In this document: piece by piece, positions 5,362 to 32,244 of the stretch
Layout: each line of letters begins with the position of its first letter
How positions within the stretch are numbered: the first letter of the stretch is position 1
Assembly: GCF_025770765.1 (NCBI RefSeq)
Contig: NZ_JANZKY010000010.1
Coordinates: 124,001-188,000 of the forward strand
Origin: Propionivibrio soli
GTDB lineage: Bacteria; Pseudomonadota; Gammaproteobacteria; Burkholderiales; Rhodocyclaceae
DNA: 64,000 nt
Direction: 5' to 3'
Position numbers and translations under genes: made by a program
The notes under the pieces: model-generated
What the model was told of the DNA's origin: nothing
The model's input: the letters and a program-made list of their open reading frames with translations, nothing else
The model's database searches: none

Positions 5362-6456
5362 TTACTTGGCGACGTAGTCGTACTTGCCGCCCTTCCATTG
5401 GTAAACCATGAAGCCGGGCAGTTTGTTGTCGCCCTTGGCGTCAAAGGAGAGCTTGCCGATGACGGTGTCGAAGCTGCCGGAACGCATGGCTTTTTCGAGG
5501 TCGGCGTACTTCACGCTCTTGGCTTGTTCGGTCGCTTGTGCAAACAGCTGCATCGCAGCATAGGCATACATCACGTAGCCCTCCGGCTCGACCTTGGCGT
5601 CGCGGAACTTCTTGACGACGTCAGCCGCGGCGGGGTTCTTGCGCGGATCCGGCGAGAAGGTGAACAGCACGTTGTCCGAGGCTGGACCGGCGGCCGTGAC
5701 GAGTTCGGTGTTGGTCATCGTGTCGCCGCCCATGACGGTCAGCTTGAGGCCTGCCTGTTGCGCCTGACGCAGGATCAGCGCCACTTCGGTGTGGTAGCCG
5801 CCGTAGGCCATCACTTCGACGCCGGCCGACTTGAGCTTGCTGACAAGACCCGAGTAGTCCTTCTCGCCGGCGGTGATCGACTCGCGCAGCGCCGGCTTGG
5901 CGCCCTTGGCCTGCAGAGCCTTGGCAATTTCATCTGCCAAGCCCTTGCCATACGCGCTCTTGTCGTCGACGACGGCGATCTTCTTGCCCTTGAACGTATC
6001 AGCGAGATAGTTGCCGGCGACTGCGCCTTGCTGGTCGTCGCGGCCCATGATACGGAAGATGTTCTTCAGGCCGCGCTCGGTGACCTGCGGGTTGGTCGAC
6101 ACCGTGGCCATCGGGATCTGTGCCTCGTTATACACATCGGACGCAGGGATCGTCGAGCTGGAACACCAGTGGCCGTGCATGAACACGATCTTCTTGTTCA
6201 CCATCGCGTTCGCGACCGATACGGCTTGCTTCGGATCGCACGCATCGTCGCCCACTTCGAGCTTGATTTTTTGGCCGAGAACGCCGCCCTTGGCGTTGAT
6301 GTCGGCGATGGCGAGCTCGGCCCCCTTTCGGATCTGATCACCCGCCGACGCGTACTGCCCGGTCATCGGCCCAGCGATCGCTACCAGGTGGTCGGCATAA
6401 ACCGGAACAGCGGATACCAGCAGGCCGATTCCGGCCAGCAGCATGTTCTTGCGCAT
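5362..6456 (-). CDS. livK: Branched-chain amino acid ABC transporter, periplasmic binding protein LivK-type
   Basis: A 364-residue type I periplasmic binding protein. The first 20 residues (MRKNMLLAGIGLLVSAVPVYA) are a classical signal peptide. The mature part begins DHLVAIAGPMTGQYASAGDQ, the Leu/Ile/Val-binding family opening, and continues with GVLGQKIKLEVGDDACDPKQAV and a paired Cys region typical of LivJ/LivK. The start at 6456 is supported by GAGGAG a few bases upstream and by the signal peptide; an extension to 6558 is possible but removes this logic. First gene of the livKHMGF operon; ligand probably a branched-chain or related amino acid. Confidence 0.93.
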   Translation of the reverse strand: MRKNMLLAGIGLLVSAVPVYADHLVAIAGPMTGQYASAGDQIRKGAELAIADINAKGGVLGQKIKLEVGDDACDPKQAVSVANAMVNKKIVFMHGHWCSSSTIPASDVYNEAQIPMATVSTNPQVTERGLKNIFRIMGRDDQQGAVAGNYLADTFKGKKIAVVDDKSAYGKGLADEIAKALQAKGAKPALRESITAGEKDYSGLVSKLKSAGVEVMAYGGYHTEVALILRQAQQAGLKLTVMGGDTMTNTELVTAAGPASDNVLFTFSPDPRKNPAAADVVKKFRDAKVEPEGYVMYAYAAMQLFAQATEQAKSVKYADLEKAMRSGSFDTVIGKLSFDAKGDNKLPGFMVYQWKGGKYDYVAK

Positions 6457-6683
6457 TATTCTCTCCTCGGGTCGTGGACGTGGAAGGCTAGGGAACGAAG
6501 CCGCTTCGCGGTGAGGGCCGAGTCGCCAACGGACTCTTGGCAACGGCGACGGCCGCAAAGAGGCGATATTTTAACCGCAGGACTTGCAGAAATCCTCCCC
6601 GTTTTGCGTGCCCGAGAATCGCGCGCTATGAGGCGAGACGGGGAGCCGGCTTCCTTTGCCTCTCCGCAGCCAGACGCGCAATG

Positions 6684-6718
6684 AAAAAAGGCAGGCACCC
6701 CGGCGGGGTCGCCTGCCT
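6684..6718 (-). terminator. Rho-independent terminator of the lipoprotein sugar-transport operon
   Basis: On the minus strand the arms AGGCAGGC (complement of 6711-6718) and GCCTGCCT (complement of 6689-6696) enclose an inner ACCCC/GGGGT stem and are followed by six T (complement of 6684-6689). It lies 23 bases after the stop of the binding-protein gene at 6741 and separates that operon from the liv operon promoter. The remaining bases to livK (6457-6683) should hold the liv promoter, but I see no clear -35/-10 pair. Confidence 0.88.
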
Positions 6719-6740
6719 CAAGCTCCTCGTGAAAAGCCGG

Positions 6741-7685
6741 TTACTTATTGCGCAGAATCGCAACGCCGGTGTCGATGACCGCCGGGCCAGTGCTCATGTC
6801 GTGGAGGGCGGCGTTAGCCTGGGCAACGCCGAGATAGCCCATGGTGAAGGGGTTCTGCGCCATCGCGGCCTTCAGACTGCCGTCCTTGATCAGACCGAGG
6901 ATTGCGTCGGACTTGTCGAAGCCGATGCCGATGATCGGTTTGCCGGAAGCCTTGATGGCGTTGCCAACGCCGACCGTCGAGCCTTCGTTGGCGCCGAAGA
7001 TGCCGACCAGATCCCCGTTGCCGGAGATGAAGCCGACGGCCGCTTCCTGTGAGGCAGCGGCGTCGCCGTCCTTGTACTCGGTGGTCAGGATGGTGTAGCC
7101 GGCGGGCTTGATGACGCTGCGGAAGCCGTTTTCACGGTCCATCGTCGAATTCGTCGCGGTGTTGACGCTGATGATGCCGATCTTGCCGCTCGTCTTGCCC
7201 GCGGCCTTGAGTTCCTCGATCATCGTCTGCCCGGCCAGCACGCCAGCCTGGTAGTTGTTTGTCGACAGTGTCGCAATCGCCGGAACGTCGGCACCGGAGT
7301 CGACGTAGATGATCTTCACGCCTTTGGACTGCGCGTTCTTCACCGCGTCGGAAATCGCCTTCGGATCGTTGGCGGCGAGCAGGATCAGATCGGCCTTGTC
7401 GGCGACGGCGTTGTTGACCGCTTCGATCTGCTTGGCGTTGTCCTTGACGTCCGGGGCGTCCCACTTGTACTTCAGGTTGAGCGCCGTGGCCATCGCCTTG
7501 GCACCTTCATCGACCTTCACCCAGTGCTGGTCCATCTTGTCCATCGTGATCAGATAGACGGTCTTCGACGGCGCCGGTGCCGCCGCGGGCGCGGCAGCAG
7601 CGGGGGCTTCCTGCTTCGGGGCGCAGCCGATCAACGCTACGGCGGCGAGCGACGCCAACATCAATGAACTAAGTCCTTTTCCCAT
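6741..7685 (-). CDS. Sugar ABC transporter substrate-binding lipoprotein (RbsB/MglB-like)
   Basis: A 314-residue type I binding protein that starts with a lipoprotein signal: hydrophobic stretch then lipobox LIGC, followed by an Ala/Pro-rich tether (about residues 22-40) and the PBP domain opening TVYLITMDKMDQHW. Sugar-binding features include the NDPKAI and GFDKSDAI loops. ATG 7685 is preferred because GGAGG lies 9 bases upstream; a TTG at 7694 abuts that site and is unlikely. Most proteobacterial sugar-binding proteins are soluble; a lipid-anchored one is common in Gram-positives. It is the last gene of the unit with permease 7747, ATPase 8759 and the signalling genes 10345-14444. Ligand unknown; galactose, fructose or mannose are reasonable guesses. 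Confidence 0.88.
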   Translation of the reverse strand: MGKGLSSLMLASLAAVALIGCAPKQEAPAAAAPAAAPAPSKTVYLITMDKMDQHWVKVDEGAKAMATALNLKYKWDAPDVKDNAKQIEAVNNAVADKADLILLAANDPKAISDAVKNAQSKGVKIIYVDSGADVPAIATLSTNNYQAGVLAGQTMIEELKAAGKTSGKIGIISVNTATNSTMDRENGFRSVIKPAGYTILTTEYKDGDAAASQEAAVGFISGNGDLVGIFGANEGSTVGVGNAIKASGKPIIGIGFDKSDAILGLIKDGSLKAAMAQNPFTMGYLGVAQANAALHDMSTGPAVIDTGVAILRNK

Positions 7686-7746
7686 TTTGTGCAACCTCCT
7701 TGTGAAGTTTCAAACCTTCCGATTCGTCTTGTGCCGGCTTGAACCC

Positions 7747-8751
7747 TTACTGAGCCGGGCGCTTCTTGAACAACTCCAGTTTGCCGCTACGCGCGATGCG
7801 GTCGATCAGCACCGAGATGATGACGACGACACCGATAACGAGGTTTCTCAAGGCCAGCGGGGCGCCGGCGAATTGCAGGCCGTTGTTGAGCACGCCCCAG
7901 ATGAACGCGCCGATCACCGTGCCGAAGAGCAGCCCCTGCCCGCCCATCGTGCTAACACCGCCGATCACCGACGCCGCCACCGCATTCAGTTCGTACATCA
8001 TTCCCGCGTTCATCGTCCCCATGCCGCTCTGCGCCGTGAGCATCAGGCCGACGACCCCGGCCAGGAAGGCGCTGAACACATACACGCGCGTCTCGGCGAC
8101 GACGACGTTGACGCCCGAGAGCTTGGCCGCCTCGTAATTGCTGCCGATGGCGTACGTATGGCGCCCGGTGCGCGTCTTGCCGAGGATGAAGGCGAAGATC
8201 ACGAAGAGGACGATGCCAATCCAGATCGGGTTATACAGGCCCAGCGTGTTGCCGTAATAGAAGAAGCTCTTGAACGCGTTGGCACTCGCCGGTATGCCGT
8301 CGGTATTCATATTGCCGTTGGCCAACTGTGCGATGCCGCGCGCGATGATCATCGTGCCGAGCGTGGCGATGAACGCGGGCAGCTTGGTGATCGAGACGAG
8401 TAGACCGTTGATCAGTCCCACCGCGCAGCAGGCGACGATCGTGATGGCGCTCGCCAGCCACGGGTCCATACCCCTGGTCGTCATCAGCGTCGCGGAAATC
8501 ATGCTCGACATGCCGGCCACCGAACCGATCGACAGGTCGATACCGCCGGTGATCATGACGAACGACTGGCCGATACCGATGATCATGATCGGCACCACCT
8601 GCCGCAGCAGGTTGGTGGTGTTCTCGCCCGAAAAGAAACTCGGGTTGATGACACCGAAGACGAGGATCATCACGGCGAGCGCCACGCTGACCGAAATGAC
8701 CTGTCCCATGCCGCGGATGGCCAGAATTTCCTTGAGATAGTTTGCTTTCAT
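7747..8751 (-). CDS. Sugar ABC transporter permease (RbsC/MglC family)
   Basis: A 334-residue membrane protein with about 8-10 hydrophobic segments. Family motifs are ITGGIDLSIGSVAGM and the late NAVAASVIGGVSTMGGQG...GTVIGAFIWGVLNNGL, both typical of MglC/RbsC permeases. ATG 8751 (MKANYLKEIL) begins 7 bases after the ATPase stop; the in-frame extension to 8784 is ATPase shadow. It forms the channel for the ATPase at 8759 and the lipoprotein at 6741. A single permease gene implies a homodimer. Confidence 0.93.
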   Translation of the reverse strand: MKANYLKEILAIRGMGQVISVSVALAVMILVFGVINPSFFSGENTTNLLRQVVPIMIIGIGQSFVMITGGIDLSIGSVAGMSSMISATLMTTRGMDPWLASAITIVACCAVGLINGLLVSITKLPAFIATLGTMIIARGIAQLANGNMNTDGIPASANAFKSFFYYGNTLGLYNPIWIGIVLFVIFAFILGKTRTGRHTYAIGSNYEAAKLSGVNVVVAETRVYVFSAFLAGVVGLMLTAQSGMGTMNAGMMYELNAVAASVIGGVSTMGGQGLLFGTVIGAFIWGVLNNGLQFAGAPLALRNLVIGVVVIISVLIDRIARSGKLELFKKRPAQ

Positions 8752-8758
8752 CCGTCGC

Positions 8759-10252
8759 TCACTGCAAAGCGTATTGGGTTGCACAGCGCAGAATCTCGTC
8801 CTGCGTCGTTTCCTTGGATATCAGGTTGCCGGTGATGCGCCCGTTGCACATGACGAGAATCCGGTCGCTCATGCCCATCACTTCGGGCATTTCGGACGAG
8901 ACGAAAAGCACGCCGATGCCTTTCGCCTTCAGTTCGTTCATGATGGTGTAGATCTCGACCTTCGACGCCACGTCGATGCCGCGCGTCGGCTCGTCGAAGA
9001 TGACGACCTTCGCCTCGCGCACCAGCCATTTGCCGAGCACGACCTTCTGTTGATTACCGCCAGAGAGATTTTTTGCCGTCTGCTCTTCCGACGGCGTGCG
9101 GATGCGCAGATCGCGAATGGCACGCTGTGTGAGGTCTTTCTCGGTGCCACTGCGCACGACGCCCCAGCGGTTGCAGACGCTGTCCAGGTTGGCGAGCCCG
9201 ATGTTCTCGCGGATCGAAAGCTCGGTGCACAAGCCTTCCTTTTTGCGGTCCTCCGGACCGAGAACGATGCCGTGCCGGATCGCATCCATCGGGTGCCGGA
9301 TCGATAGCGTTTCGCCATCCAGCGTGATCGTGCCGCTTTCGACCGGATCGGCGCCGAAGATTGCGCGCACGAGTTCGGTACGCCCCGCGCCCATCAGTCC
9401 GGCAAGGCCGATGATCTCGCCAGCGTAGAGCGAGAACGAGACATCACGCACCATGCCCGAGGACAGGCCGGAAACCTCTAGTATCTTCCGCCCCTTGTCG
9501 ACGGCGACATGCGGGAACTTCTCTTTGATCTCGCGCCCGACCATCATCGAGATGATCTCGTCGAGCGTAGTCTCCGCAAAGTCGCGGGTCGCGACGTACC
9601 GCCCGTCGCGGAAGATCGAAACGCGGTCGGTGATTTCCTTCAGTTCATCAAGACGGTGCGAGATATAAATGATGGCGCAGCCCTGTTCCCGCAAGTCACG
9701 CACGATACGGAAGAGCTCCGTGATCTCGCGCTCGGTAAGCGCCGAGGTCGGTTCGTCCATGATCAGGATGCGGGCATTCGTCGACAGCGCCTTGGCGATC
9801 TCGACCATCTGCTGCTTGGACACCGGAAGCTTCTTCACGACCGTGCGTGGGTCGATGTCGATCTTGAGCTTGTCGAGCATCGCCTTCGCCATGCGGTTCA
9901 TGTCGGTCTGCCGGACCACGCCGCGCGTATGCATCTCGCGCCCAAGGAACATGTTCTCGGCCACCGTAAGGTCGGTGCACATGTTCAGTTCCTGGTGGAT
10001 GATCGCAATGCCGAGTTCCTGCGCCTTCTTCGGCGTCAGTTCGCCGATCTCGAGGCCGTTCAGCCGGTAGCTTCCCGAATCGCGGTTGTAGATGCCGCTG
10101 ATGATCTTCATCAGCGTCGACTTCCCGGCGCCGTTCTCGCCGAGGAGCGCATGCACTTCTCCCGCCTTCAGATTGAAGTGCACATCGTCCAGCGCCTTGA
10201 CTCCGGGGAACGATTTGCTGATCCCGGACAGTTCCAACACATACTCTTGCAC
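8759..10252 (-). CDS. Sugar ABC transporter ATPase, tandem-domain (MglA/RbsA family)
   Basis: A 497-residue double-ABC ATPase. The N-domain has Walker [10 protein letters not shown] (about 38-46), IIHQELN Q-loop and MDEPTSALTE Walker B with H-loop ISHR. The C-domain has the usual degenerate Walker A (GLMGAGRTE), signature LSGGNQQK and Walker B FDEPTRGIDV. It is therefore the catalytically competent ATPase, in contrast to its upstream neighbour at 10345. Start is GTG 10252 with an AAGGGAAGG ribosome site upstream; it begins 92 bases after the pseudo-ATPase stop. Energises the permease at 7747. Confidence 0.94.
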   Translation of the reverse strand: MQEYVLELSGISKSFPGVKALDDVHFNLKAGEVHALLGENGAGKSTLMKIISGIYNRDSGSYRLNGLEIGELTPKKAQELGIAIIHQELNMCTDLTVAENMFLGREMHTRGVVRQTDMNRMAKAMLDKLKIDIDPRTVVKKLPVSKQQMVEIAKALSTNARILIMDEPTSALTEREITELFRIVRDLREQGCAIIYISHRLDELKEITDRVSIFRDGRYVATRDFAETTLDEIISMMVGREIKEKFPHVAVDKGRKILEVSGLSSGMVRDVSFSLYAGEIIGLAGLMGAGRTELVRAIFGADPVESGTITLDGETLSIRHPMDAIRHGIVLGPEDRKKEGLCTELSIRENIGLANLDSVCNRWGVVRSGTEKDLTQRAIRDLRIRTPSEEQTAKNLSGGNQQKVVLGKWLVREAKVVIFDEPTRGIDVASKVEIYTIMNELKAKGIGVLFVSSEMPEVMGMSDRILVMCNGRITGNLISKETTQDEILRCATQYALQ

Positions 10253-10344
10253 GCGACCTTCCCTTGGTTCGTTGGTCCGCCGTCGGCTCTTCTTCTAGGC
10301 CGAATTGCAGCGTGCGGCGACTCTAGCACCCGCTTTTTTTCGAC

Positions 10345-11787
10345 TCAAAGGTCATTCTTCAGGTGAAGGGAGACGTTCTTTGGATTGAGAACGATTTTTC
10401 TCTCGAAGAGGTCGGCTTCCGACGCACTCGACGTCAGGCCGAGAATCGCGACGCCTTTGGCGCGCAACAAGCGGATGAAGAACGCGCTGGTCTCTTCGAG
10501 ACTGCGATCGATCGAACTGAACGGCTTAACGCAAACGACGACGCCCGGCCGGTACAGGTGCCAGCGGCAATAGACGAGCTTGAGCAGGGCAACCGGCGAA
10601 AGCTGGTCCGGATACTTCCCCAGCTCTCCCGGTTCAAAAAAAGGCGCATATTCGCGCAGGCAACTGGCGAGGTAAGCGGGCGCGGCCCAGAACGTGGCTG
10701 TCTTGCGGCTGGCTGCGAAAGCGAGGTTCTCCACGGCCGTGAAATCGGGAAAGAGCATCGTTGCCGCCGGGTTCTCGGGTACGAAGGCAACGCGTTGATC
10801 AAGTGCCTCGTGGAGATTACGCGCGTTGAAAGGCCGACCATCGACGGCGATCGATCCAGCGGAGGGCGAAACCTCGCCGGCAAGCAAGGCACGTACGGCC
10901 TGCAGCATCGGCCCTTCCTCGTCGTACAGGCATAGTTCGTCGCCGGCATGCAGGCGAAAGCTCAGCCCTCTCAATGCTCCGGCAACAACCGTGGAAAAGG
11001 CCAACGCTGGCGGCGCATTGGCAGGAGGAGGCACACCGTGAGTCAGCGCCGGGTGGGGCACCGAACTCTCCCAGGAGAAGCAGGAGCGTATCGCCGCCGC
11101 ATCGAGCTGGCCGTGCTCGAAAGCCCAGAAGTTCTTCCCGTTCTTGATGACGATCACGCGATCGGCATATCGCTCGAGTGGTGCCACCGCACCGTCTACC
11201 AGCACGAAGCCGATGCCTGTTGCCGCGATTCTCACGACAAGCTGCATCAACTGGTCGACCTCGGCGTCGGAAAGAAACGTCGACAGATCCTGCAGAACAA
11301 CGACTTCCGCGCCAAGTGCGATGTTCTTGACCACCTCGACGTTACAACGTTCGAGCTCGCCAAGATCACGTGCCAGCACCCCGGGTTCCACGGCCAAACC
11401 GAACTCACTCAGAAGTTGCCGCGTTTGCCGTTTGATCAAGGGGGTATCGATGAACCGACCTTTCACGCCCGGCCGTATCACGAAGATATTTTCTCCGACC
11501 GACAGGTCGTCGATCAGGGTTTTCACCGGGCGAACCACGCCGACCTTGCGCGGCCGCCGCGGATCGATTTCCTCAATCGGGCTCGCTTCATTGCGCCAGT
11601 AGAAGCGCCCGCGTGTCGTAGCCATCTTGCCGGACATGATCCCCGACAGCGCATCCTTCACCTCGGCATGCATGGAGAAAACCCCGACGATCTCGCCGCC
11701 CCGCAGAACCAGGGTGAAATCGGAGAGCGGCTCCCGGCCAGGTTCACCCGCCGTCACGTCTTCCATGCGGAAGAGCTCGGGACGCAT
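10345..11787 (-). CDS. Degenerate tandem ABC protein (pseudo-ATPase) between transporter and two-component genes
   Basis: A 480-residue protein with the size and double-domain layout of an RbsA/MglA ATPase but without its catalytic motifs. Where Walker A should be, the N-domain reads GVFSMHAEVKDALSG (about 35-49) and the C-domain LYDEEGPMLQAVRALLAG (about 287-304), with no GxxGxGKS/T. The signature motifs are lost (RDLGELERCN, about 140-149; QLSPVALLKL, about 395-404). Walker B reads VVLQDLST (about 163-170) and VVCVKPFSSID (about 417-427), lacking the catalytic Glu, and the H-loop His is absent in both halves. The frame is intact, so it is a maintained protein rather than a decayed gene. ATG 11787 is only 2 bases after the kinase stop. 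I infer a non-hydrolysing partner that links the transporter to the kinase at 11790. Confidence 0.8.
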   Translation of the reverse strand: MRPELFRMEDVTAGEPGREPLSDFTLVLRGGEIVGVFSMHAEVKDALSGIMSGKMATTRGRFYWRNEASPIEEIDPRRPRKVGVVRPVKTLIDDLSVGENIFVIRPGVKGRFIDTPLIKRQTRQLLSEFGLAVEPGVLARDLGELERCNVEVVKNIALGAEVVVLQDLSTFLSDAEVDQLMQLVVRIAATGIGFVLVDGAVAPLERYADRVIVIKNGKNFWAFEHGQLDAAAIRSCFSWESSVPHPALTHGVPPPANAPPALAFSTVVAGALRGLSFRLHAGDELCLYDEEGPMLQAVRALLAGEVSPSAGSIAVDGRPFNARNLHEALDQRVAFVPENPAATMLFPDFTAVENLAFAASRKTATFWAAPAYLASCLREYAPFFEPGELGKYPDQLSPVALLKLVYCRWHLYRPGVVVCVKPFSSIDRSLEETSAFFIRLLRAKGVAILGLTSSASEADLFERKIVLNPKNVSLHLKNDL

Positions 11788-11789
11788 GG

Positions 11790-12791
11790 TCAGCCGCCAG
11801 TGTTCCGCCTGACGGGCAGCGCGATGTCTACGCGGCAGCCGATGCCCTCAACGCTCGAAATGCGCAGTCCGTACGGCTCGCCGAAAAGCAGCTTGATACG
11901 GTTGTTCACATTGACGAGCGCGATGTGCCCGGCGCGCGACTTTTCCTCATTGCGCGTCACGAGTTCCGGGAAAGCCAGACGCCTGTTGATGTCGTCAACC
12001 TTTTCCTCGGGCATACCGACACCGTCGTCGGCAACCTCGATCGACAGGCGTGGCCCATCGACGGCGATGCGTACCGTCACCTGCCCTGCCCCCACCTTGT
12101 TCTCCAGGCCGTGGATGATCGCGTTCTCGATGATCGGCTGCAGCGTCAGCTTGGGCACCAGAAAATCCCGCGCAACCTCGCTCCCCGGCGCCATCTCGAC
12201 GCGCATCGCGATCCGATCGCCGAAGCGGTAGTTCTGAATCGCAAAGTAGTTCTCGGCGTTCGCGAGCTCCTCTTCGAGCGTCACCAAATTATCCATATTG
12301 GATATCGTGTAGCGGAAAAAGGTCGCGAGCGCCTCGGTGATGTCGGCGATGTTGCGCATCCCGGCCGACAGCGCGTCGCCGCGGATCGCCTCCAGCGTGT
12401 TGTAGAGAAAGTGCGGATTGATCTGGTTCTGCAGCGCGAGGTATTGCGCCTGCCTGTTGGAAAGCCGGTTCACCTCGTGATTGTCGAGGCGCTTGCGGAT
12501 CTTCTCGAGCGCCTCCCGCTCGGCTTGCGTGTAATACACCGGGCGGTCGAAAATCGCCTCGGGATCGTAGCCGCGGTTGAAGCGCAGGTACAGCCGGTCG
12601 AGAGCCTTCAAGGGCCGCACGATGCCGCGGTAAAAGAAGATCGAGTTGGCCGCGAAGGCCCCGACCAGCAGCGCGCCGATTCCTGTGCCGGCCAGGCCGT
12701 TGAGGTAGAACAGGACGCCCAGGATCGCATAGGCCGCCGCGCAGGCCACCGCGCGACGCATCATGTCCCAGCCTTCGTAGAACGCGGCCAT
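11790..12791 (-). CDS. YesM/LytS-type sensor histidine kinase with minimal sensory region
   Basis: A 333-residue kinase. Two hydrophobic segments (about 13-33 and 36-56) are joined by only a few residues, so there is essentially no periplasmic domain. A HAMP-like or linker region (about 57-110) leads to the His_kinase motif LQNQINPHFLYNTLEAIR with H127, then an N-box LQPIIENAIIHGLE and G-boxes VADDGVGMPEE and the HIALVNVNNRIKL region of the YesM/LytS class. It would phosphorylate the AraC-type regulator encoded 12 bases upstream. Because it lacks an extracellular sensor, the signal must come through the membrane or a partner; the pseudo-ATPase whose gene begins 2 bases downstream is the obvious candidate. 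Confidence 0.9.
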   Translation of the reverse strand: MAAFYEGWDMMRRAVACAAAYAILGVLFYLNGLAGTGIGALLVGAFAANSIFFYRGIVRPLKALDRLYLRFNRGYDPEAIFDRPVYYTQAEREALEKIRKRLDNHEVNRLSNRQAQYLALQNQINPHFLYNTLEAIRGDALSAGMRNIADITEALATFFRYTISNMDNLVTLEEELANAENYFAIQNYRFGDRIAMRVEMAPGSEVARDFLVPKLTLQPIIENAIIHGLENKVGAGQVTVRIAVDGPRLSIEVADDGVGMPEEKVDDINRRLAFPELVTRNEEKSRAGHIALVNVNNRIKLLFGEPYGLRISSVEGIGCRVDIALPVRRNTGG

Positions 12792-12803: not shown

Positions 12804-14444
12804 TCAGTAGTAGAGCTTCCGGTACTTCGACGGATGGATGCCCGTAAGGCGCGTAAACACTCGCGAGAAATGCTTGACGTCGCCGTAGCCAACGTCGGCG
12901 GCAATGTCGGCGATCGTTTTGGCCGGGTCGGCGAGCAGGCGTTTCGCTTCCCGAATACGCACGTCCGTCAGGTATTCGAGAAAGTTGAGCCCCGTCTCCT
13001 TCTTGAACAGCACCGAAAAGTAGGTCGGATTGAAGCCCGCGCGCTGACTCACGCTCTCGAGCGAGACCGGTGCCGCGTAATTCGCCTGGATGTACCGCTG
13101 GACCTCGCGTACCGGCCGGTTGCTCTCGCGGCGACGCCGGGCCGCGACGTGCTCGACGAGTGCGCCCGCCCGCTCGCCGAGAAGTTCGAACACCTCGGCG
13201 CGGCTGGCACAGAACCCGAGCTTATCTTCGGTATCGGCAAGCATGGCTTCGATCGGTTCGTCCACGGCGTTCTGGCTCTTCAAAGCAAAACGCAGGATCT
13301 GCAAGCACTCGTCGGCCACGGCAAGAACACCGCGCCCCGACATGGCCCCGTCGTTCGCAACGCGGTCCCCTACCTCACCGATCACGCGGCACGTCTCGCC
13401 GGCATCGACGATTTCGACACACGCCAGCAGGCGCTGGCGCAGGCCGGGATTCAGTACGCGGGTCACGACGTCCCCCACATCGGGGTCGGGAAGCTTCTCG
13501 ATGATGCGGCCCGCGCCGAGCAACAGTCGGTCAGCCACCGCGGTTTCCGCGTCGCGCAGCGAATTGCGCAGCGTGCGCAAATCCGGCGTCGTCCGGCCGA
13601 GGCCGACCGTAACCTTGATGCGGTCGAACAATTCGCCTTGCGCCTGCAGCTTGTCGATCACGGCGAGCAGCGCGCGCCGCAGCGGTTTGAGGTGCGCATC
13701 GCCGAAGTTGATGACGCCATAAATACCACGCGGCGTCGCATGCAGCGCATGCGCGTGGGCTTTCCCGGCAAGCGCCCCGGTGAGCGCGGCCTGGGTTTTC
13801 TCGGCTAGCAGCCGGCGGACATTGGCATTGATCGATGCGTAATGCACATCAGCCTTGACAACAAGCCCCTGGAACAGATCGGGGACGAAGCCGAGATCGA
13901 ATTCACGGTTGATCCGCTCCAGCGTCGAGCCGTCGGCTCCGGCTTCGTGAGGGAACAGCGCCGCGTCGTCGTCGGCGAGCAGGCGCGCGACAAAGTCTTC
14001 GCGATGCCGCTTCGCGTCGTCGCGAGCGCGCTCCGAATACACGGCATCGCGTTGTTTCGTCGCTTCGCGCTCGGCATATTTCTGCACCATCTTGCGCAGC
14101 GTCTGGTTGATCTCCACGGCTTTCAAAGGCTTCAGGAGATAATCCTCGACGCCGAAGCGGATCGCCTTCTGCGCGTACTCGAAGTGCCGGTAGCCGCTCA
14201 CGATGATGAAGTCGGTTTCCGGGTTCGTCTGCTTCGCCCGGTCGATGAGCTCGATTCCGTCGTAACCCGGCATGCGGATGTCGGTGATGACGACATCCGG
14301 GCGCTCGGCGTTGATCAGATCGAGTGCAGAGAGGCCGTCGCTCGCTGTGGCAACGAGCTCAAGGCCGAGCTCGTCCCACTGGATCAGGTTCTTGATCAGC
14401 AGCAGGACTTTCGGTTCGTCGTCTGCAATGATTACGCGGAACAT
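12804..14444 (-). CDS. YesN-type response regulator (receiver plus AraC DNA-binding domain)
   Basis: A 546-residue regulator. The receiver domain (about 1-125) has D8-D9, phospho-acceptor D55 in VVITDIRMPG and K105 in YLLKPLK. A long middle region (about 130-430) resembles the YesN linker. The C-terminus (about 440-546) carries two helix-turn-helix motifs of the AraC family, including AGFNPTYFSVLFKKETG and VGYGDVKHFSRVFTRLTG. It is partner to the kinase at 11790 and probably activates this operon. The gene follows the PfkB kinase stop by 88 bases, which contain a GC-rich hairpin (CCGGGCG/CGCCCGG) without a U-tract. Confidence 0.93.
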   Translation of the reverse strand: MFRVIIADDEPKVLLLIKNLIQWDELGLELVATASDGLSALDLINAERPDVVITDIRMPGYDGIELIDRAKQTNPETDFIIVSGYRHFEYAQKAIRFGVEDYLLKPLKAVEINQTLRKMVQKYAEREATKQRDAVYSERARDDAKRHREDFVARLLADDDAALFPHEAGADGSTLERINREFDLGFVPDLFQGLVVKADVHYASINANVRRLLAEKTQAALTGALAGKAHAHALHATPRGIYGVINFGDAHLKPLRRALLAVIDKLQAQGELFDRIKVTVGLGRTTPDLRTLRNSLRDAETAVADRLLLGAGRIIEKLPDPDVGDVVTRVLNPGLRQRLLACVEIVDAGETCRVIGEVGDRVANDGAMSGRGVLAVADECLQILRFALKSQNAVDEPIEAMLADTEDKLGFCASRAEVFELLGERAGALVEHVAARRRRESNRPVREVQRYIQANYAAPVSLESVSQRAGFNPTYFSVLFKKETGLNFLEYLTDVRIREAKRLLADPAKTIADIAADVGYGDVKHFSRVFTRLTGIHPSKYRKLYY

Positions 14445-14532: not shown

Positions 14533-15459
14533 TCAGCCGGATATGATGCTCACCTGGGCGGAGAGCCGTGCGAGAACCTCCGCCGACGGCGGCGTTGCGC
14601 CGGCCGACAGGCAGGCGCCCGCTCCTGCCGCGATCGACGCACGCAGATGCTCGTCCCAGCCGGCATCCGGATGGTCCATCAGGCTGCACAGCAAACCGCC
14701 GAGACTGCAGTCGCCCGCGCCAACCGTGTCGACGACTTCGATCTTCGGAGGCGAAGCCCGCCACGAACGGTCGCCGACATAGATCGCTGCCCCCTCGGCG
14801 CCGCGCGTGAACAGGATCGGCGCCGCCGGGTTCATGGCCCGCAGCCTCACAAAGGCACCGGCGTCGTCGGTGGTGCGGAAGAGCCCGCACAGGTCCTCCT
14901 CGGAGACCTTCACGAGGTCGGCGATCGCTACCATGCGCGCGAGGATCGGGTCGTAACGTTCGGTCATGGCCACGCGGAAGTTCGGGTCGTAACTGATGCG
15001 TACGCCACGCTTCTTGAGCCGTTCGGCCAGGGCGACGAGGCGATCGGCGAGCGGCGGCCGGGCGAGGCTGATGCTGCCAAAGTGCGCCCAGCTCACAGCG
15101 TCTTCCCAACCCGCCGGCAAAGCGTCGGCGTCGAAGTGCAGATCGGCGCTGTCGTCGCCGACGAAGAAATACTTCGGCGGATGCGTCTCGTGCACGATCG
15201 CGAGCAGCGGGGAGCGGTCATAGCGCTGCATGAATCGCATGTCGAGCCCGGCTTTCTCGCTCGCCTGCCACAGCGTGTCGCCGAAGCAGTCGCGGCTGAC
15301 GGCACCGCCGAAGGCGCTCGGCACGCCGAAGCAGGCCATCACCTGCGCCACGTTCCACGGAGCGCCGCCGGGTACGCTGGCCCAGCGGTCCGGGCCGAGA
15401 CGGATCATGTCGGTCAGCGCTTCGCCGAAAGAAACGAATTTGGGAAGGCCGGCCATCAT
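14533..15459 (-). CDS. PfkB-family sugar kinase, fructokinase-like
   Basis: A 308-residue ribokinase-family protein. It opens PKFVSFGEALTDMIR, contains the substrate-side motif PGGAPWNVAQVMA, and ends with the anion-hole/catalytic motif VDTVGAGDCSLGGLL. This is the bacterial fructokinase layout (ATP-dependent phosphorylation of a ketose, cytoplasmic). ATG 15459 overlaps the epimerase stop (ATGA). Paired with an AGE-family isomerase it suggests aldose to ketose to ketose phosphate, e.g. mannose to fructose to fructose 6-phosphate. Substrate is inferred, not shown; the longer upstream frame is epimerase shadow. Confidence 0.85.
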   Translation of the reverse strand: MMAGLPKFVSFGEALTDMIRLGPDRWASVPGGAPWNVAQVMACFGVPSAFGGAVSRDCFGDTLWQASEKAGLDMRFMQRYDRSPLLAIVHETHPPKYFFVGDDSADLHFDADALPAGWEDAVSWAHFGSISLARPPLADRLVALAERLKKRGVRISYDPNFRVAMTERYDPILARMVAIADLVKVSEEDLCGLFRTTDDAGAFVRLRAMNPAAPILFTRGAEGAAIYVGDRSWRASPPKIEVVDTVGAGDCSLGGLLCSLMDHPDAGWDEHLRASIAAGAGACLSAGATPPSAEVLARLSAQVSIISG

Positions 15460-16670
15460 ACGTTCTCCAGTTCGCCCATGCCGCGCAGCACATCGAAACA
15501 GGCTCCGATGTCGTGGTAATCGACCTTGCCGCCGGGGCTCTTCTCGCGCGTGTGATTGAGGTTGGCCGGGTCGAGGATGCGGAACCAGGCGCCGTGTTCG
15601 TGATCGACGAAATGGTGCCAACAGTAGTCCCAGATCTTCTCGTACCACTGCCAGTACTCCGGCTTGCCGGTACGGGTGGCGAGCAGCGCCGCTGCCGCGA
15701 AGGACTCGGCCTGCACCCAGTGATACTTGTCGCCGTCGCAGATCTCGTCCTCGGGCCCGAAGCCGTAATGCAGGCCGCCGTGCTCCTTGTCCCAAGCACG
15801 ACTGACACCAGCGTTGAAGAGCGCTTCGGCACGCGGCAAATGCCAGTCGGCCGGCAAATGCGCATCGAGCTGCAGCAGCAGCTTCGCCCACTCCGTGTGG
15901 TGGCCCGGTTGGTAGCCCCACGGCCGGTAGATGTTCGTCTTGTCGTTGCGGTTGTAGTCCCAATCGACCGACCAGTCGGTGTGGTAGTGCTCCCAGATCA
16001 TGTCGTTGGCGAGCGCCGCCTGCCGGCATGTGATGTTGCGCGCCAGCATCTCGGCACGCTCGATATAGCGGCGATCACCGGAGGCGACAAAGGCGTAGAT
16101 CATCGCTTCGCAGGCGTGCATGTTCGCGTTCTGGCCGCGATAAGGCAGCACGGTCCAATCGGCGCGCGCCTCGTCGGCATAGAGGCCGGCGACCGGCTCC
16201 CAGAACCGCTTCTCGGCAACCTCGAAGGTTTCCTTGAGCCACCCCGCCGCCTCGGCGACTCCGCTCTTCAAGGCATGCGCATAGGCGAGAATGACGAAGG
16301 CCATGCCGTAGCAGTGGCGGGTATCGTCGAGCACGGTGGCACGCCCGTCGTGCCAGTCGATCAACCACGCGTAGCCGCCGGTTGCCGGATCGAGAAACGC
16401 CTTGCGCAGGAAGTCGACCCCGTGTCGTACGCCGTCCTGGAAGCGCTTCTCGCGCGTCAATGCATAGAGCATGGCATGGGTGATGATGAATCGTGTCGCA
16501 TTCACCAGATGCCGCGTGCGTTTGTCATAGACGGTGCCGTCGTCGAGATAGAAGTGGTACATGCCGCCACTCGGGTCGATCGCGCGGTCGGCGTAGAAAT
16601 CCATGATCCAGCGGATGTGCTGGCGCAGAAAGGCGGGGGAACGAAAATCCGGGGCTGGAGGTATGGTCAT
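15456..16670 (-). CDS. AGE-family epimerase/isomerase (N-acylglucosamine 2-epimerase fold)
   Basis: A 404-residue protein of the (alpha/alpha)6-barrel AGE family, which contains N-acylglucosamine 2-epimerase, cellobiose 2-epimerase and mannose isomerase YihS. Visible signatures include RFIITHAMLYALTR near the N-terminus, WHDGRATVLDDTRHCYGMAFVILAYAHA, GQNANMHACEAM, YQPGHHTEWAKLLL with conserved His residues, and WVQAESFAAAALL. ATG 16670 (MTIPPAPDF) is chosen; a 19-residue upstream extension has no ribosome site. It is first in the unit with a fructokinase-like kinase, so mannose-fructose isomerisation is the simplest reading. A divergent LacI regulator sits 254 bases away. Confidence 0.88.
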   Translation of the reverse strand: MTIPPAPDFRSPAFLRQHIRWIMDFYADRAIDPSGGMYHFYLDDGTVYDKRTRHLVNATRFIITHAMLYALTREKRFQDGVRHGVDFLRKAFLDPATGGYAWLIDWHDGRATVLDDTRHCYGMAFVILAYAHALKSGVAEAAGWLKETFEVAEKRFWEPVAGLYADEARADWTVLPYRGQNANMHACEAMIYAFVASGDRRYIERAEMLARNITCRQAALANDMIWEHYHTDWSVDWDYNRNDKTNIYRPWGYQPGHHTEWAKLLLQLDAHLPADWHLPRAEALFNAGVSRAWDKEHGGLHYGFGPEDEICDGDKYHWVQAESFAAAALLATRTGKPEYWQWYEKIWDYCWHHFVDHEHGAWFRILDPANLNHTREKSPGGKVDYHDIGACFDVLRGMGELENV

Positions 16671-16859
16671 GATGTGCCGATCAGTAAACAAGATTGACGA
16701 AGCGAAGCGCCGCCCAAGCCACAGCAACCGGAGCGCATCGCGGTTGCCAGAAATCCCTGAGGGAGCATCGGAAGCCTTTACCTACTACAATGCGGCCATT
16801 TTCCCTGCAAAGCGAGTTTAAGGTCGCCGACGGTGCTTGATCAAGCGCCGTCGAATGAA

Positions 16860-16870
16860 GTTTACTAAAC
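16860..16870. promoter_or_regulatory. Candidate LacI operator (GTTTACTAAAC)
   Basis: The 11-base perfect palindrome GTTTACTAAAC lies 54 bases before the LacI start in the 254-base gap shared with the epimerase gene. A second partial copy (GTTTACTG on the minus strand, 16683-16690) sits close to the epimerase start. Two half-matching sites flanking a divergent promoter region fit autoregulation plus control of the epimerase-kinase operon. Assigned by pattern and position only. Confidence 0.4.
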
Positions 16871-16924
16871 AGCGTCGGGAACCACAACGAAAAGGCGGCC
16901 CGACCGCCGAAAACCGGAGAACTC

Positions 16925-17932
16925 ATGTCCGTCACCGTCCGCGATATCGCGAAGGCCGCCAAGGTTTCCGTCGGCACTGTCTCGCGCGCGCTCAAGAACC
17001 AGCCGGGAATGGCCGAGCGCACGCGGCGCCGCATCCGTGACATCGCCGTTTCGCTCGGCTACGACTTCGAGCGCCTGCAATCCGAGCCGATCCGCCGTAT
17101 CGCATTTCTGCTGCACCGGCAGCACAAGCTCTCGGCGACCGCTTTTTTTTCGGAAGTCCTGCACGGGGTCGAAGACGCCTGCAGCAGCCTCGGCGTATCG
17201 CTGAGTTTCCTTGCCGTCGGCCCGGCCGACCCGGTGATGGCCCAACTCTCGCGGCATGAAGCAGACGCATTGATCTGTGCTGGCTACTTCGAGCCCGAAT
17301 TGCTGCAACTGCTCAGGCAAAGCGGCAAGCCGATGGTCCTCGTCGATCAATGGTCGCTCGATTTCACCTCGGTCAATCCGGATAACGAAACCGGCGCCTA
17401 TCTGGTCACGCGCCATCTGCTCGACACGGGCCGTCAGCGCATCGCCTTTCTCGCCCATTCGCTCGCCCACTTCAGCATCCGTCAGCGCGAACGCGGTTTT
17501 CGCCGTGCGCTGTTCGAGGCCGGCATCCTCGCCGATCCGGGACTCGACGTCGTGGCGCCGCCGGGAGCCGACGTGGAAACCGGCGTCGCGTTTCTGACCC
17601 AACACCTGCTCGCGCTGCCGAAACCACCCGATGCGATATTCGCGTACAACGACGCCGCCGCGTTGCTTACCATGCGCCACTGTCAGGAGGCGGGCTTCTC
17701 GGTGCCCGACGACATCGCTATTGCCGGGTTCGACGACATCGCGATGGCTGCGCTCAGCAACCCGCCGCTGACTACCGTGCATGTCGACAAACCGCAGCTC
17801 GGACGGCGCGGTGTCGAGTTGCTGATGCAGGCGGCAGCGAGCCGTAGCGAAGAGACGCTCCCGGTCGAACTCGTCGTCCGCGATAGCACGCGGCCGACGT
17901 CGTCGCCTAGCCGACCAACGCCGCACGCTTAG
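16925..17932 (+). CDS. LacI-family transcriptional regulator
   Basis: A 335-residue repressor. The N-terminal helix-turn-helix (about 4-30) reads VTVRDIAKAAKVSVGTVSRAL, with the hinge PGMAERTRRRIRDIAVSLGYD. A periplasmic-binding-protein-like effector domain follows (about 60-325), including VDQWSLDFTSVNPDNETGAYLVTRHLL and AIAGFDDIAMAALSNPPLTTV. Start ATG 16925 has AACCGGAGAAC upstream. Divergent from the epimerase/kinase unit and convergent with the polyol operon 21 bases after its stop. The likely effector is a sugar or sugar phosphate of the adjacent pathway. Confidence 0.94.
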   Translation: MSVTVRDIAKAAKVSVGTVSRALKNQPGMAERTRRRIRDIAVSLGYDFERLQSEPIRRIAFLLHRQHKLSATAFFSEVLHGVEDACSSLGVSLSFLAVGPADPVMAQLSRHEADALICAGYFEPELLQLLRQSGKPMVLVDQWSLDFTSVNPDNETGAYLVTRHLLDTGRQRIAFLAHSLAHFSIRQRERGFRRALFEAGILADPGLDVVAPPGADVETGVAFLTQHLLALPKPPDAIFAYNDAAALLTMRHCQEAGFSVPDDIAIAGFDDIAMAALSNPPLTTVHVDKPQLGRRGVELLMQAAASRSEETLPVELVVRDSTRPTSSPSRPTPHA

Positions 17933-17953
17933 TCACCAGGCCTCATTAGGCGG

Positions 17954-18973
17954 CTAAAGGTCAACCATCACCTTCATGATCGACGGCCCGTTGGCGTCGA
18001 TGAAACGGTAGGCATCGGGCCACTCGTCGAATGGGAGATGCCGGGAAACGAGCGGGGCGATCGAGACGGACGAGGCGAGCAGTTGCACGGCAGCCTCCCA
18101 GTCCTCACGCCAATACATCATGCTGCCGGCGAGGACGATCTCGTGCTCGCCGACGATGCTCATGTCGACGACCGGCGGCTTTCCATAAACGCCGACGATG
18201 AGAACCAGACCTCCCTTCTCAATCGCTTTCACGACCGAGCGCAGCGACGCTTCGACGCCCGCCGCTTCGAAGGCGAGATCGAATCCTCCCGGCCCGAAGG
18301 CCGCCTCCGTTGCATCTTCGAGCGACTCGCGGCTTGTGTTGACCGCGTGGTCGACACCGCACCGGCGGGCTACGTCGAGTCGGTAATCGGCCACGTCGGT
18401 GATGAGCACCTTGGCCGCGCCCCGCGCCTTCGCGACCTGGGCGATGAGGTTGCCGATCGTTCCGGCGCCGAGTACGACCACGTTACGTCCGGCAAGGTCT
18501 CCCGCACGCTTACAGGCATGCACGGCGACCGACACCGGCTCCACGAAAGCGCCTTGGTCGGCGGTGAAGTCGTCGGGCAGGATAACCAGGCGTTCGGCCG
18601 GGATGTTGTACAACTCGCGGCCGCAGCCGTCGGCCTGGAAACCGCGCACGCGCAGGTTCTCGCAAATGTTGAACCTCCCTTTGCGGCACGGATTGCATTG
18701 CCCGCACACGATCTGCGGCAAGGCGGTGACCTTGGCGCCGAGCGGTGGCGGCGTATCGACGCCTGGGCCGATCGCCTCGACCGTTCCCATGAACTCGTGG
18801 CCCTGGATGACGGGGTACGGCGTGAAGGGGTGCGAACCGTGCCAGACGTGGATGTCCGAACCGCAGATGCCAATCTGGCGCACGCGGATCTGTACTTCGC
18901 CGGGACCCGGCGGCGTCTCGGCGACGGTTTCGAAGCGGATGCTGCCGGGTTTTTCCATGACGGCCTGTTTCAC
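17954..18973 (-). CDS. Zinc-dependent medium-chain polyol dehydrogenase
   Basis: A 339-residue MDR-family dehydrogenase. Catalytic zinc ligands C37 (GICGSD) and H59-E60 (GHEFMG) and structural zinc cysteines C90, C93, C96 and C104 are present. The nucleotide-binding loop VVLGAGTIGN (about 170-179) is followed by D in ITDVADYR, favouring NAD. Closest in style to sorbitol/L-idonate/threonine-type dehydrogenases that oxidise a polyol at C2. Start is GTG 18973 with GGAGACC six bases upstream; ATG six codons in is an alternative. Last gene of the polyol operon. Confidence 0.88.
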   Translation of the reverse strand: MKQAVMEKPGSIRFETVAETPPGPGEVQIRVRQIGICGSDIHVWHGSHPFTPYPVIQGHEFMGTVEAIGPGVDTPPPLGAKVTALPQIVCGQCNPCRKGRFNICENLRVRGFQADGCGRELYNIPAERLVILPDDFTADQGAFVEPVSVAVHACKRAGDLAGRNVVVLGAGTIGNLIAQVAKARGAAKVLITDVADYRLDVARRCGVDHAVNTSRESLEDATEAAFGPGGFDLAFEAAGVEASLRSVVKAIEKGGLVLIVGVYGKPPVVDMSIVGEHEIVLAGSMMYWREDWEAAVQLLASSVSIAPLVSRHLPFDEWPDAYRFIDANGPSIMKVMVDL

Positions 18974-19022
18974 TTGGGTCTCCGTATTCTCAGAATGTCG
19001 AGGTCTTTGCCGATCGTCGTGG

Positions 19023-19964
19023 TCAGGACGACGAACCGCCGAACCGGCTTTCGGACTGCTTGCGGAACTCGGTCGGCGTCACGCCTTTGAGCTCGCGGAA
19101 GCGACGGTTGAAGTTGGCCACGTTGTTGAAGCCACATTCGTAGCAGATGTCGGTCACGTAGCGGTCGGTGCTCATGAGGAGCTGGCAGGCGCGGTTGATG
19201 CGCACCTGATTGACGAAGTCGGTGTACGTGTTCCCCGTGGCGCGGCGGAAGAAACGCGAGAAGCGGCTCTCGCTCATCCCAAGTTCAGCGGCAACGTCGG
19301 CGGCGGTAATCGACTGCGCGACGTTTTCGGTAATCCGGTTGACGATGTCGTTGATCTGATCGAACTCCGCATCGCTCTCTGCCCCCTTCATCTGCACGCT
19401 CGACAGCAGCCGATAATCGGTCCAGCGCGCGAGGTCAGTCATGAAGTCAAGGAAGGCGGCCAGGCGCCGCATGCCCTTCGCCGCCTTGACCTTGTGCCAA
19501 TGGTCCTGTCCACCGTTGGGGAACCCAAAGAACTCGACACCGTGGCGCGAGCGTTCGAGCAACGGCACAATCTCGGCAAGCTCCGGCATCTGGTGGCACG
19601 CGTTCTCGATCGGCGCGTGCTGGAACTGGATGACGAGGTCACGTTTCTGGACGCCCTCCTCCGGCAAATCGAGCGAAATCCAGTTGTGCGGGAGATTGGG
19701 GCCGCACAACACCATGTGGCCTGGTTCGAACGGGCCGATCCAGTCGCCGACGAAGGCTTTTCCCGACGTGGCGATGATCATGTGCAACTCGTATTCGTCG
19801 TGGCAGTGCCAGCGCGCCAGCGGGGTCGGAAAGCCGTGATCGAGGCAGCGGATGAAGCCGACTTCTGCTGTCGGCTCGTAGCCCAACTCAGGGTTGCGGT
19901 TGAAATCGCCTTCGAGCTCCGGCTGGCGTTTCCGCTGTGCGGCAGGCTTGGCAGGGGTCGCCAT
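19023..19964 (-). CDS. AraC-family regulator of the polyol operon (MtlR-like)
   Basis: A 313-residue protein. An N-terminal cupin (about 40-120) contains ARWHCHDEYELHMIIATSG, typical of sugar-binding AraC members, and the C-terminal DNA-binding pair of HTH motifs is clear (SITAADVAAELGMSESRFSRFF; ICYECGFNNVANFNRRFRELKG). In Pseudomonas fluorescens an AraC activator, MtlR, controls a mannitol/arabitol operon of the same composition; by length and setting this is its likely equivalent. It follows the short-chain dehydrogenase stop by 46 bases and would be autoregulated as part of the operon. Confidence 0.88.
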   Translation of the reverse strand: MATPAKPAAQRKRQPELEGDFNRNPELGYEPTAEVGFIRCLDHGFPTPLARWHCHDEYELHMIIATSGKAFVGDWIGPFEPGHMVLCGPNLPHNWISLDLPEEGVQKRDLVIQFQHAPIENACHQMPELAEIVPLLERSRHGVEFFGFPNGGQDHWHKVKAAKGMRRLAAFLDFMTDLARWTDYRLLSSVQMKGAESDAEFDQINDIVNRITENVAQSITAADVAAELGMSESRFSRFFRRATGNTYTDFVNQVRINRACQLLMSTDRYVTDICYECGFNNVANFNRRFRELKGVTPTEFRKQSESRFGGSSS

Positions 19965-20010
19965 GGCTAGGTTCCGTCCATCAGGTTCAGATCATTACTC
20001 AACTCATTAT

Positions 20011-22208: not shown

Positions 22209-22242
22209 TTTGGTCTCCCTATCACATGATTTACGAAATTCA

Positions 22243-23289: not shown

Positions 23290-23412
23290 CACAGTCCCTC
23301 GCTGAATTGTGTTTGTTCCATGCCATCTGCCAACCATTCGTGACACGAAGACGAGCCGCAGACAGCACGGCAAGACGAAGTCGACACAGTCACGGATGGC
23401 TTGCACATGGAA

Positions 23413-24243: not shown

Positions 24244-24251
24244 GGTGTGCC

Positions 24252-25112: not shown

Positions 25113-25151
25113 TGGCGTGGACCCTCGATGCTGGGAAGGATCCGGGCAAGA

Positions 25152-25168
25152 GCGGTCACGACGACCGC
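25152..25168 (-). promoter_or_regulatory. Small intercistronic hairpin after the polyol binding-protein gene
   Basis: Perfect inverted repeat GCGGTC-ACGAC-GACCGC in the 100-base gap between binding protein and first permease. There is no U-tract. As with livK, rbsB and xylF, it sits directly downstream of a binding-protein gene that heads its operon. Confidence 0.35.
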
Positions 25169-25212
25169 CCCCGCCACGGATAAACTCTTTGCGTCGCGTT
25201 CTACGCGTCGTC

Positions 25213-32149: not shown

Positions 32150-32244
32150 ACCCTCTCCTGCCGAAGATACGACTCGAAGCACTGACCGGCGGCTCGCTGG
32201 CTCAATACTTCATCGTACTCCCTGCGTTTCGTTCGTGTTCTCAA

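Follow-up and report, generated by a model that had tools for sequence, protein, structure and literature searches.

XylFII-LytS/YesN, reportedly from Clostridium beijerinckii, where it perceives D-xylose and is said to control the CUT2 importer XylFGH through LytS, a kinase reportedly of PF06580, and CuaD-CuaS-CuaR of Ruminiclostridium cellulolyticum both tie a kinase and a YesN/AraC-type regulator to a sugar ATP-binding cassette (ABC) importer, and both use an extra paralogue of a transporter part as an accessory sensor. Transporter ATPases are also linked to gene control in Pst-PhoU-PhoR and MalK-MalT, where the link is a working ATPase or PhoU and not a dead paralogue. In the published accounts, the accessory sensor of XylFII-LytS and CuaD-CuaS is an extra solute-binding protein, CuaD-CuaS having a YesN-type regulator (PMC10384115, PMC6321045), and an SBP2 'signal collector' is proposed for C. 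cellulolyticum (PMC3656788). BceS is described as a kinase without an outside sensing domain for which ABC transporter cycling is the proposed signal and whose regulator induces the transporter (PMC7828314, PMC10314905). Here we describe a locus of Propionivibrio soli, in a stretch of 64,000 nucleotides (contig NZ_JANZKY010000010.1, positions 124,001 to 188,000; hereafter the window), where a YesN-type regulator, a YesM-type histidine kinase and a catalytically dead tandem ABC ATPase, here called pseudo-RbsA, are encoded just before an RbsACB-type sugar importer.

A first-pass annotation of the window had proposed that this dead ATPase docks on the permease or the kinase and reports transport state in place of a sensor domain. 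Our own reading, to which we give about even chances, is that pseudo-RbsA would be the signal-input subunit of the kinase, a retooled transporter motor that links YesMN to the transport of sugar or to the state of the permease. What a kinase that has no sensor domain uses as its cue is an open question; if the reading is true, the locus is a compact three-gene system with a nameable input, kinase and output promoter, and it shows that the ATPases of transporters, as well as binding proteins, can take on a role in signalling alone.

The locus shares with XylFII-LytS/YesN a PF06580 kinase, a YesN/AraC-type regulator and a CUT2 importer. It differs in that the sensory cassette consists of YesN, YesM and pseudo-RbsA only, with no second solute-binding protein, and in that the kinase has no extracytoplasmic domain. 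In XylFII-LytS and CuaD-CuaS the accessory lies outside the membrane on the kinase's extracellular domain, whereas here it is a cytosolic motor paralogue; the present system would thus have swapped the outside accessory for a dead motor inside, as a cytosolic counterpart of XylFII-LytS. BceAB-BceS is similar in having a kinase without an outside sensing domain tied to an ABC transporter, but there the working transporter itself is the sensor, with no dead ATPase, and the permease is of another family (FtsX-like with a large outside loop, compared with a BPD_transp_2 protein of 345 residues here). The core of Bce kinases is HisKA, unlike that of the kinase described here. No earlier description of such a system was found in open-licence PMC papers, in agreement with the first-pass annotation, which knew of none.

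Pseudo-RbsA is a divergent relative of RbsA/AraG/XylG/YtfR. Its best NCBIfam match (E value 1e-24) scores 87 bits against a cut-off of 670, far under the threshold for RbsA-like equivalogs; the operon's intact RbsA is also under its cut-off (598 versus 745), so this score separates the two weakly. Pfam ABC_tran gives 26.6 bits for pseudo-RbsA and 43–56 bits for the three orthologues described below. Like the tandem ATPases RbsA, MglA and AraG of CUT2 importers (approximately 500 residues), pseudo-RbsA aligns over nearly its full length and has a tandem nucleotide-binding domain (NBD) fold: AlphaFold2, run on the protein alone as the first-pass annotation had suggested, returns a full tandem NBD with a mean predicted local distance difference test (pLDDT) score of 80, from an alignment that contained working RbsAs. 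It differs from those ATPases in that its catalytic motifs are gone, it lies on a separate long branch and it is encoded with a kinase.

In the alignment, not one composite ATP site built of Walker A, Walker B, signature and H-loop motifs is left in any of the four orthologous pseudo-RbsAs. Compared with the operon's RbsA, the N-half of the window's protein has SMHAEVKDA for GENGAGKST, RPV for the Q-loop HQE, LQDL for MDEP and LVDGA for YISHR, and the C-half has DEEGPMLQA for GLMGAGRTE, LSPVA for LSGGN and CVKP for FDEP. By pattern match a Walker A-type loop, LSGGN and DEP are each found in 0/4 pseudo-RbsAs; every one of the 22 working RbsAs in the set has both Walker A-type loops as well as two or three DEPs, and LSGGN is present in 20 of them (the H-loop pattern was too strict and matched only 11/22 of them). 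The N-half Walker A is likewise present in 21/21 other RbsA-like loci checked. The earlier claim of motif loss in both halves holds in so far as the motifs are lost in 4/4 orthologues, but it was drawn too widely: even the cognate working RbsA has non-canonical motifs (GLMGAGRT as the C-half Walker A, an N-half without LSGGQ and a C-half H-loop without His), so that three of the eight features listed as missing are normal here. An Asp is kept at the N-half Walker B Glu position in all four pseudo-RbsAs, and two glycines of the C-half loop are retained by three. We regard as decisive the losses of Walker A and the H-loop in the N-half, of LSGGN in the C-half and of Walker B in both halves. Neither composite ATP site, not even the one canonical site, has kept its motifs, and pseudo-RbsA has probably ceased to bind ATP.

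Of the columns conserved in RbsA, pseudo-RbsA retains 11/52 in catalytic motifs (a list drawn up by hand) versus 43/97 elsewhere (Fisher p = 0.007), or 10/45 versus 28/59 under a stricter conservation cut (p = 0.013). The N-half carries this contrast (2/23 catalytic versus 25/54 other columns). The best-kept 12-residue segment, DLSVGENIFVIR, follows the N-half Q-loop (LSVxENxFxxR segment) and has a mean identity to RbsA of 51%, compared with 12–26% for whole regions of the protein. Of the structured parts, the helical subdomain of the C-half resembles RbsA least (15.5% mean identity), yet 46% of it is invariant among the four orthologues. The most invariant blocks are KLVYCRWHL and SSxDxxLEE (within KPxSSxDxxLEE) in the C-half and VIKxGxNFW at the end of the N-half, and some residues of this new invariant set stand at old catalytic sites. 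In ABC importers the region after the Q-loop lies near the coupling helix of the permease; a permease-facing role for the kept segment is suggested by this general knowledge, since a search by sequence found no solved structure of a close RbsA (E value 1e-40) or RbsC (E value 1e-5).

The kinase has a two-helix membrane hairpin that is hydrophobic from about residue 6 to 60 and, by hydropathy, has almost no extracytoplasmic loop, as the first-pass annotation had noted. AlphaFold2 places the helices at 2–34 and 39–72, leaving 4 residues between them (a loop of about 10 at most by eye), in a model that is poor beyond the hairpin (mean pLDDT 51). A linker of approximately 48 residues, a His box (NPHFLYN, His127) and an ATPase domain complete the protein, which thus has the features of intramembrane-sensing kinases, namely two helices, a very short loop and no sensor domain. 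Ten further YesM-type kinases, encoded on Bacillota plasmids and faecal contigs, have lengths of approximately 500–630 residues, 170–300 residues more. Among the four orthologous kinases the invariant columns number 10/50 in the hairpin, 19/48 in the linker, 75/84 in the dimerization and histidine phosphotransfer (DHp) domain and 78/143 in the ATPase domain, with region borders set by us. Because the kinase has no extracytoplasmic domain and the hairpin is its least conserved part, these features point to a cytosolic input. Pseudo-RbsA would be the natural signal input, since the kinase is sensorless, the partner is cytosolic and fixed, and the importer is complete separately, with one RbsA, one RbsC and one RbsB (Pfam).

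Three orthologues of pseudo-RbsA (L015, L016 and L017; 52–54% identity) are present in three other genomes of the genus. At each locus a short kinase gene lies 4 base pairs (bp) before pseudo-RbsA and RbsA follows; YesN (61–62% identical) is seen in L015 and L016, the contigs that reach that far, and RbsC and RbsB in L016 and L017. The order YesN-YesM-pseudoRbsA-RbsA-RbsC-RbsB is kept as far as the contigs extend. Over the four species the pseudo-RbsA gene lies 2–4 bp behind the kinase gene but 92–109 bp ahead of rbsA. Neither a homologue with intact Walker motifs in the same position (3/3 orthologues are dead) nor a break in the linkage to the kinase (kept in 4/4 species) was found, and these were observations that the first-pass annotation had named as telling against its own proposal.

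The pseudo-RbsA frame is open over 480–483 codons in the four species. In the closest pair, L015 and L017, nonsynonymous (dN) and synonymous (dS) divergence are 0.111 and 1.05 for pseudo-RbsA (dN/dS approximately 0.1) and 0.111 and 1.23 for the kinase, the same dN. In wider pairs, most of them near saturation in dS, dN is 0.27–0.42 for pseudo-RbsA, 0.24–0.27 for the kinase, 0.25–0.33 for YesN and 0.07–0.10 for RbsA and RbsC. By these estimates pseudo-RbsA keeps the tempo of the sensory genes or a faster one, unlike the importer, and it is evidently under purifying selection and not decaying. In the tree, the operon's RbsA is separated from the four pseudo-RbsAs, which form their own branch with a stem of approximately 3.7 substitutions per site; the attachment of this clade is poorly fixed given the long branch, and the nearest RbsA is from Cetobacterium. 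From the length of the stem the clade is old, and relatives in phyla beyond Pseudomonadota are likely. A recent duplication of the operon's own RbsA is unsupported, the clade being on a separate long branch. Alignment A5 leaves out rows L006, L020 (853 residues) and L005 (which repeats the cognate RbsA). Pseudo-RbsA and the cognate RbsA (at least 86% identical) occur together in the same 4 of 28 genomes of the genus, which differ in completeness; because the two genes are neighbours, this counts as one gain or loss event and not many independent ones.

In each of the four species the pseudo-RbsA gene ends in a direct repeat with a spacing of 21 bp, which adjoins promoter-like sequence before rbsA. 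The half-site AAGAATGACC occurs twice in L015 and L017 (10/10), and the match is 9/10 in L016 and 7/10 in the window. For L015, L016 and L017 this repeat is the best at spacings of 18–24 in the gene plus gap; that of the window is weak, as two other 21-bp spacings of 1504 score higher and others may tie. The last five amino-acid-identical codons are identical in DNA in all four species, compared with 34/198 such columns overall, and in L016 the repeat DNA is kept despite a moved stop. A promoter-like TTG(A/T).T, 17 bp, TGC-TA...T was read by eye in 4/4 species, with variable -10 ends; the window's version has 8/12 consensus matches and was not listed by a generic promoter scan. A relaxed pattern for a pair of half-sites, derived from these sites and so matching them by construction, was found in 4/4 genomes here and once more in G000, between open frames, and its reversed control once in G015. 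No conserved operator was recognised upstream of yesN, where the alignment is poor. Tandem half-sites two helical turns apart beside the -35 are a usual layout for AraC-family activators, and because the repeat matches this layout we read it as a predicted YesN operator of rbsACB.

In the mechanism that we propose, YesN, YesM and pseudo-RbsA would together make up a sensory cassette of three genes that serves the importer encoded just downstream. Pseudo-RbsA, a motor paralogue that would have lost ATP binding while keeping its tandem-NBD shape, would be placed at the cytosolic membrane face between the importer and the sensorless kinase. Its N-half would occupy, or compete for, the coupling-helix dock of RbsC, and its diversified surface, largely in the C-half, would contact the linker and DHp domain of the kinase; this division is proposed because the segment after the Q-loop is the best kept and the C-half blocks are invariant among the four. 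Sugar-driven changes in the importer would alter the contact, the kinase would phosphorylate YesN, and YesN~P would turn on rbsACB by binding the repeat, with its 21-bp spacing, in which the pseudo-RbsA gene ends. For the signalling role tied to the transporter that the first-pass annotation had put forward, selection, operator placement and co-occurrence are in favour; for its docking and transport-state part, the retained LSVxENxFxxR segment is the only pointer. A bolder version, which we hold tentatively and somewhat doubt, is that a sensorless YesM kinase depends for its input on an obligatory subunit, a motor paralogue devoid of ATPase activity, which reads permease occupancy or turnover at the ATPase dock; given the long branch, this protein may belong to a so far unnoticed family of pseudo-NBD sensors that also has members beyond Pseudomonadota.

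Several points weigh against a signal-input subunit docked on the permease. The retention contrast is weak in the C-half (9/29 catalytic versus 18/43 other columns), the motif after the Q-loop is shared by ABC ATPases in general and its retention may reflect folding alone, and, with the C-half helical subdomain the part least similar to RbsA, the full two-sided coupling-helix dock is not kept. Competition between pseudo-RbsA and intact RbsA for RbsC would be expected and could hinder transport; pseudo-RbsA changes faster than the kinase in wider pairs; and the known carriers are only four species, three of them through contigs of 5.7–55 kb from metagenome-assembled genomes. The same genetic and selection evidence would also fit a cytosolic ligand sensor, whose vacated nucleotide sites bind sugar, sugar phosphate or another metabolite and which relays to the kinase with no permease contact. 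The three invariant blocks named above, with residues at old catalytic sites, agree with this, but the best-kept segment is the one after the Q-loop and not in the nucleotide-binding motifs, and descent from a transporter motor would be unnecessary; we consider such a sensor unlikely.

A decoy on the transporter, which would occupy RbsC and keep the permease inactive until YesMN induction supplies the intact RbsA that displaces it, would make use of the RbsA-like tandem fold and the kept segment, and of the fact that pseudo-RbsA is made from the sensory cassette and intact RbsA from the predicted regulated operon. However, pseudo-RbsA evolves at the rate of the sensory genes or faster and not at that of RbsA and RbsC, its gene is 2–4 bp from the kinase gene in 4/4 species, and the sensorless kinase would be left without evident input, which makes a decoy quite unlikely. 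We give less credence again to a kinase that senses RbsC directly through its hairpin, as BceS with BceB, with pseudo-RbsA as a scaffold or minor modulator: the hairpin with almost no outside loop is suggestive, and in the BceAB-S structures helices of BceS lie next to those of BceB, largely by way of lipids (PMC10314905), yet the hairpin is poorly conserved (10/50 columns) though RbsC is 89–90% identical in the three species compared, and a strictly kept pseudo-ATPase is left unexplained. That pseudo-RbsA is a functionless, decaying duplicate of the operon's own RbsA is scarcely credible. The loss of all catalytic motifs would suit it, but it is refuted by selection and orthology, namely the open frame in four species with dN/dS of approximately 0.1 in the closest pair, and the clade's own branch of 3.7 substitutions per site.

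Searches outside the genus gave little. No plasmid home was found among 72,556 plasmid records, of which 1,179 match pseudo-RbsA, all at less than 60% identity (best 26.8% among the 40 matches listed), and of 62 viral-contig stretches that matched one of two short patterns, none encodes a relative. The kinase has matches in one other of 395 family genomes (E value 1e-30; this search recovered 3/4 known carriers, G015 not being among the matches) and in 22 others of 398 phylum genomes (E value 1e-25), in both cases only to the core from residue 68 or later. The cognate RbsA was found in none of the other 273 class genomes at an E value of 1e-165. Up to 4 or 5 candidates were scored per genome, depending on the search, and very remote dead ATPases could be missed; the scan of genome contigs relied on short peptides from one sequence, so that only close relatives are within its reach.

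A profile of the four orthologues (A1) revealed no tandem dead ATPase beside other kinases in the loci examined for dead ABC neighbours (three Subdoligranulum plasmid records, five faecal contigs and two Paenibacillus plasmids). Its matches were an RbsA-type ATPase in L044 with a visible Walker A, the RbsA-type ATPase of Cetobacterium and a single-NBD protein in L043. The Cetobacterium transporter has no kinase annotated beside it, and the preceding 516-residue hypothetical protein has no ABC match. One faecal contig (L040, 1–6494) contains the end of a permease-like frame, YesN, a full-length YesM and two consecutive frames that look, by appearance alone, like binding proteins, an arrangement resembling XylFII-LytS. 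An RbsA-like ATPase in L006 (1336–2961, minus strand; G000:C33:48438-52787) is intact in Walker A and Walker B (LDEAT) of the N-half but has an unusual C-half (GLDGQGQTQ loop, LNDP replacing DEP), and looks like a partly degenerate RbsA of another kind.

The features of the locus are listed in Table 1. The coordinates, the 480-residue length and the 2-base gap between kinase and pseudo-RbsA genes given by the first-pass annotation were all confirmed, as were the YesN neighbour and, downstream, an ATPase with intact motifs and a permease and binding protein that match their families.

Table 1. Genes and predicted regulatory sites of the pseudo-RbsA locus (window coordinates)
Feature	Coordinates	Strand	Evidence
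YesN-type response regulator: receiver domain (Asp55), middle region, AraC-type helix-turn-helix (HTH)	12804..14444	-	Pfam Response_reg 3.3e-26, HTH_18 2.3e-24
YesM-type histidine kinase, 333 residues: hairpin, linker, His box, ATPase domain	11790..12791	-	Pfam His_kinase 1e-24, HATPase_c 4.2e-11; alignment, hydropathy, AlphaFold2
Pseudo-RbsA, catalytically dead tandem ABC ATPase, 480 residues	10345..11787	-	Pfam, NCBIfam, alignment, motif patterns, AlphaFold2, dN/dS
Predicted YesN operator: direct repeat AAGAACGTCT / AAGAATGACC, 21 bp apart, within last pseudo-RbsA codons	10350..10380	-	
Predicted rbsACB promoter: TTGAGT - 17 bp - TAGAGT, TGC just before -10	10320..10348	-	
RbsA, the transporter's intact tandem ATPase	8759..10252	-	NCBIfam RbsA 1.1e-179; intact motifs
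RbsC-type permease, 345 residues	7747..8784	-	Pfam BPD_transp_2 1.8e-43
RbsB-type periplasmic sugar-binding protein	6741..7694	-	Pfam Peripla_BP_4 9.7e-49

The operon does not stand out in GC content (0.615, compared with 0.619 for the window), and this comparison gives no support to a recent foreign origin; the GC content at third codon positions is 0.717 in pseudo-RbsA and 0.79–0.86 in nine neighbouring genes. Genes at 14533–26520 of the window encode a PfkB-type fructokinase, a mannose-isomerase-like AGE protein, D-arabinitol 4-dehydrogenase, L-iditol 2-dehydrogenase, a UgpC-type ATPase and an SBP_bac_1 importer. Such sugar and polyol catabolic content hints at a hexose or a polyol as the substrate of the region. 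At the orthologous loci the flanks look different, and this neighbourhood is at best a tentative guide to the transporter's substrate. Directly behind RbsB in L017, the other strand encodes a dihydroxyacetone kinase family protein (Dak1 and Dak2, 588 residues; 6355–8121). The window also contains, 19 kb away at 30647–32182, another RbsA-type ATPase, which has intact motifs and is 22% identical to pseudo-RbsA.

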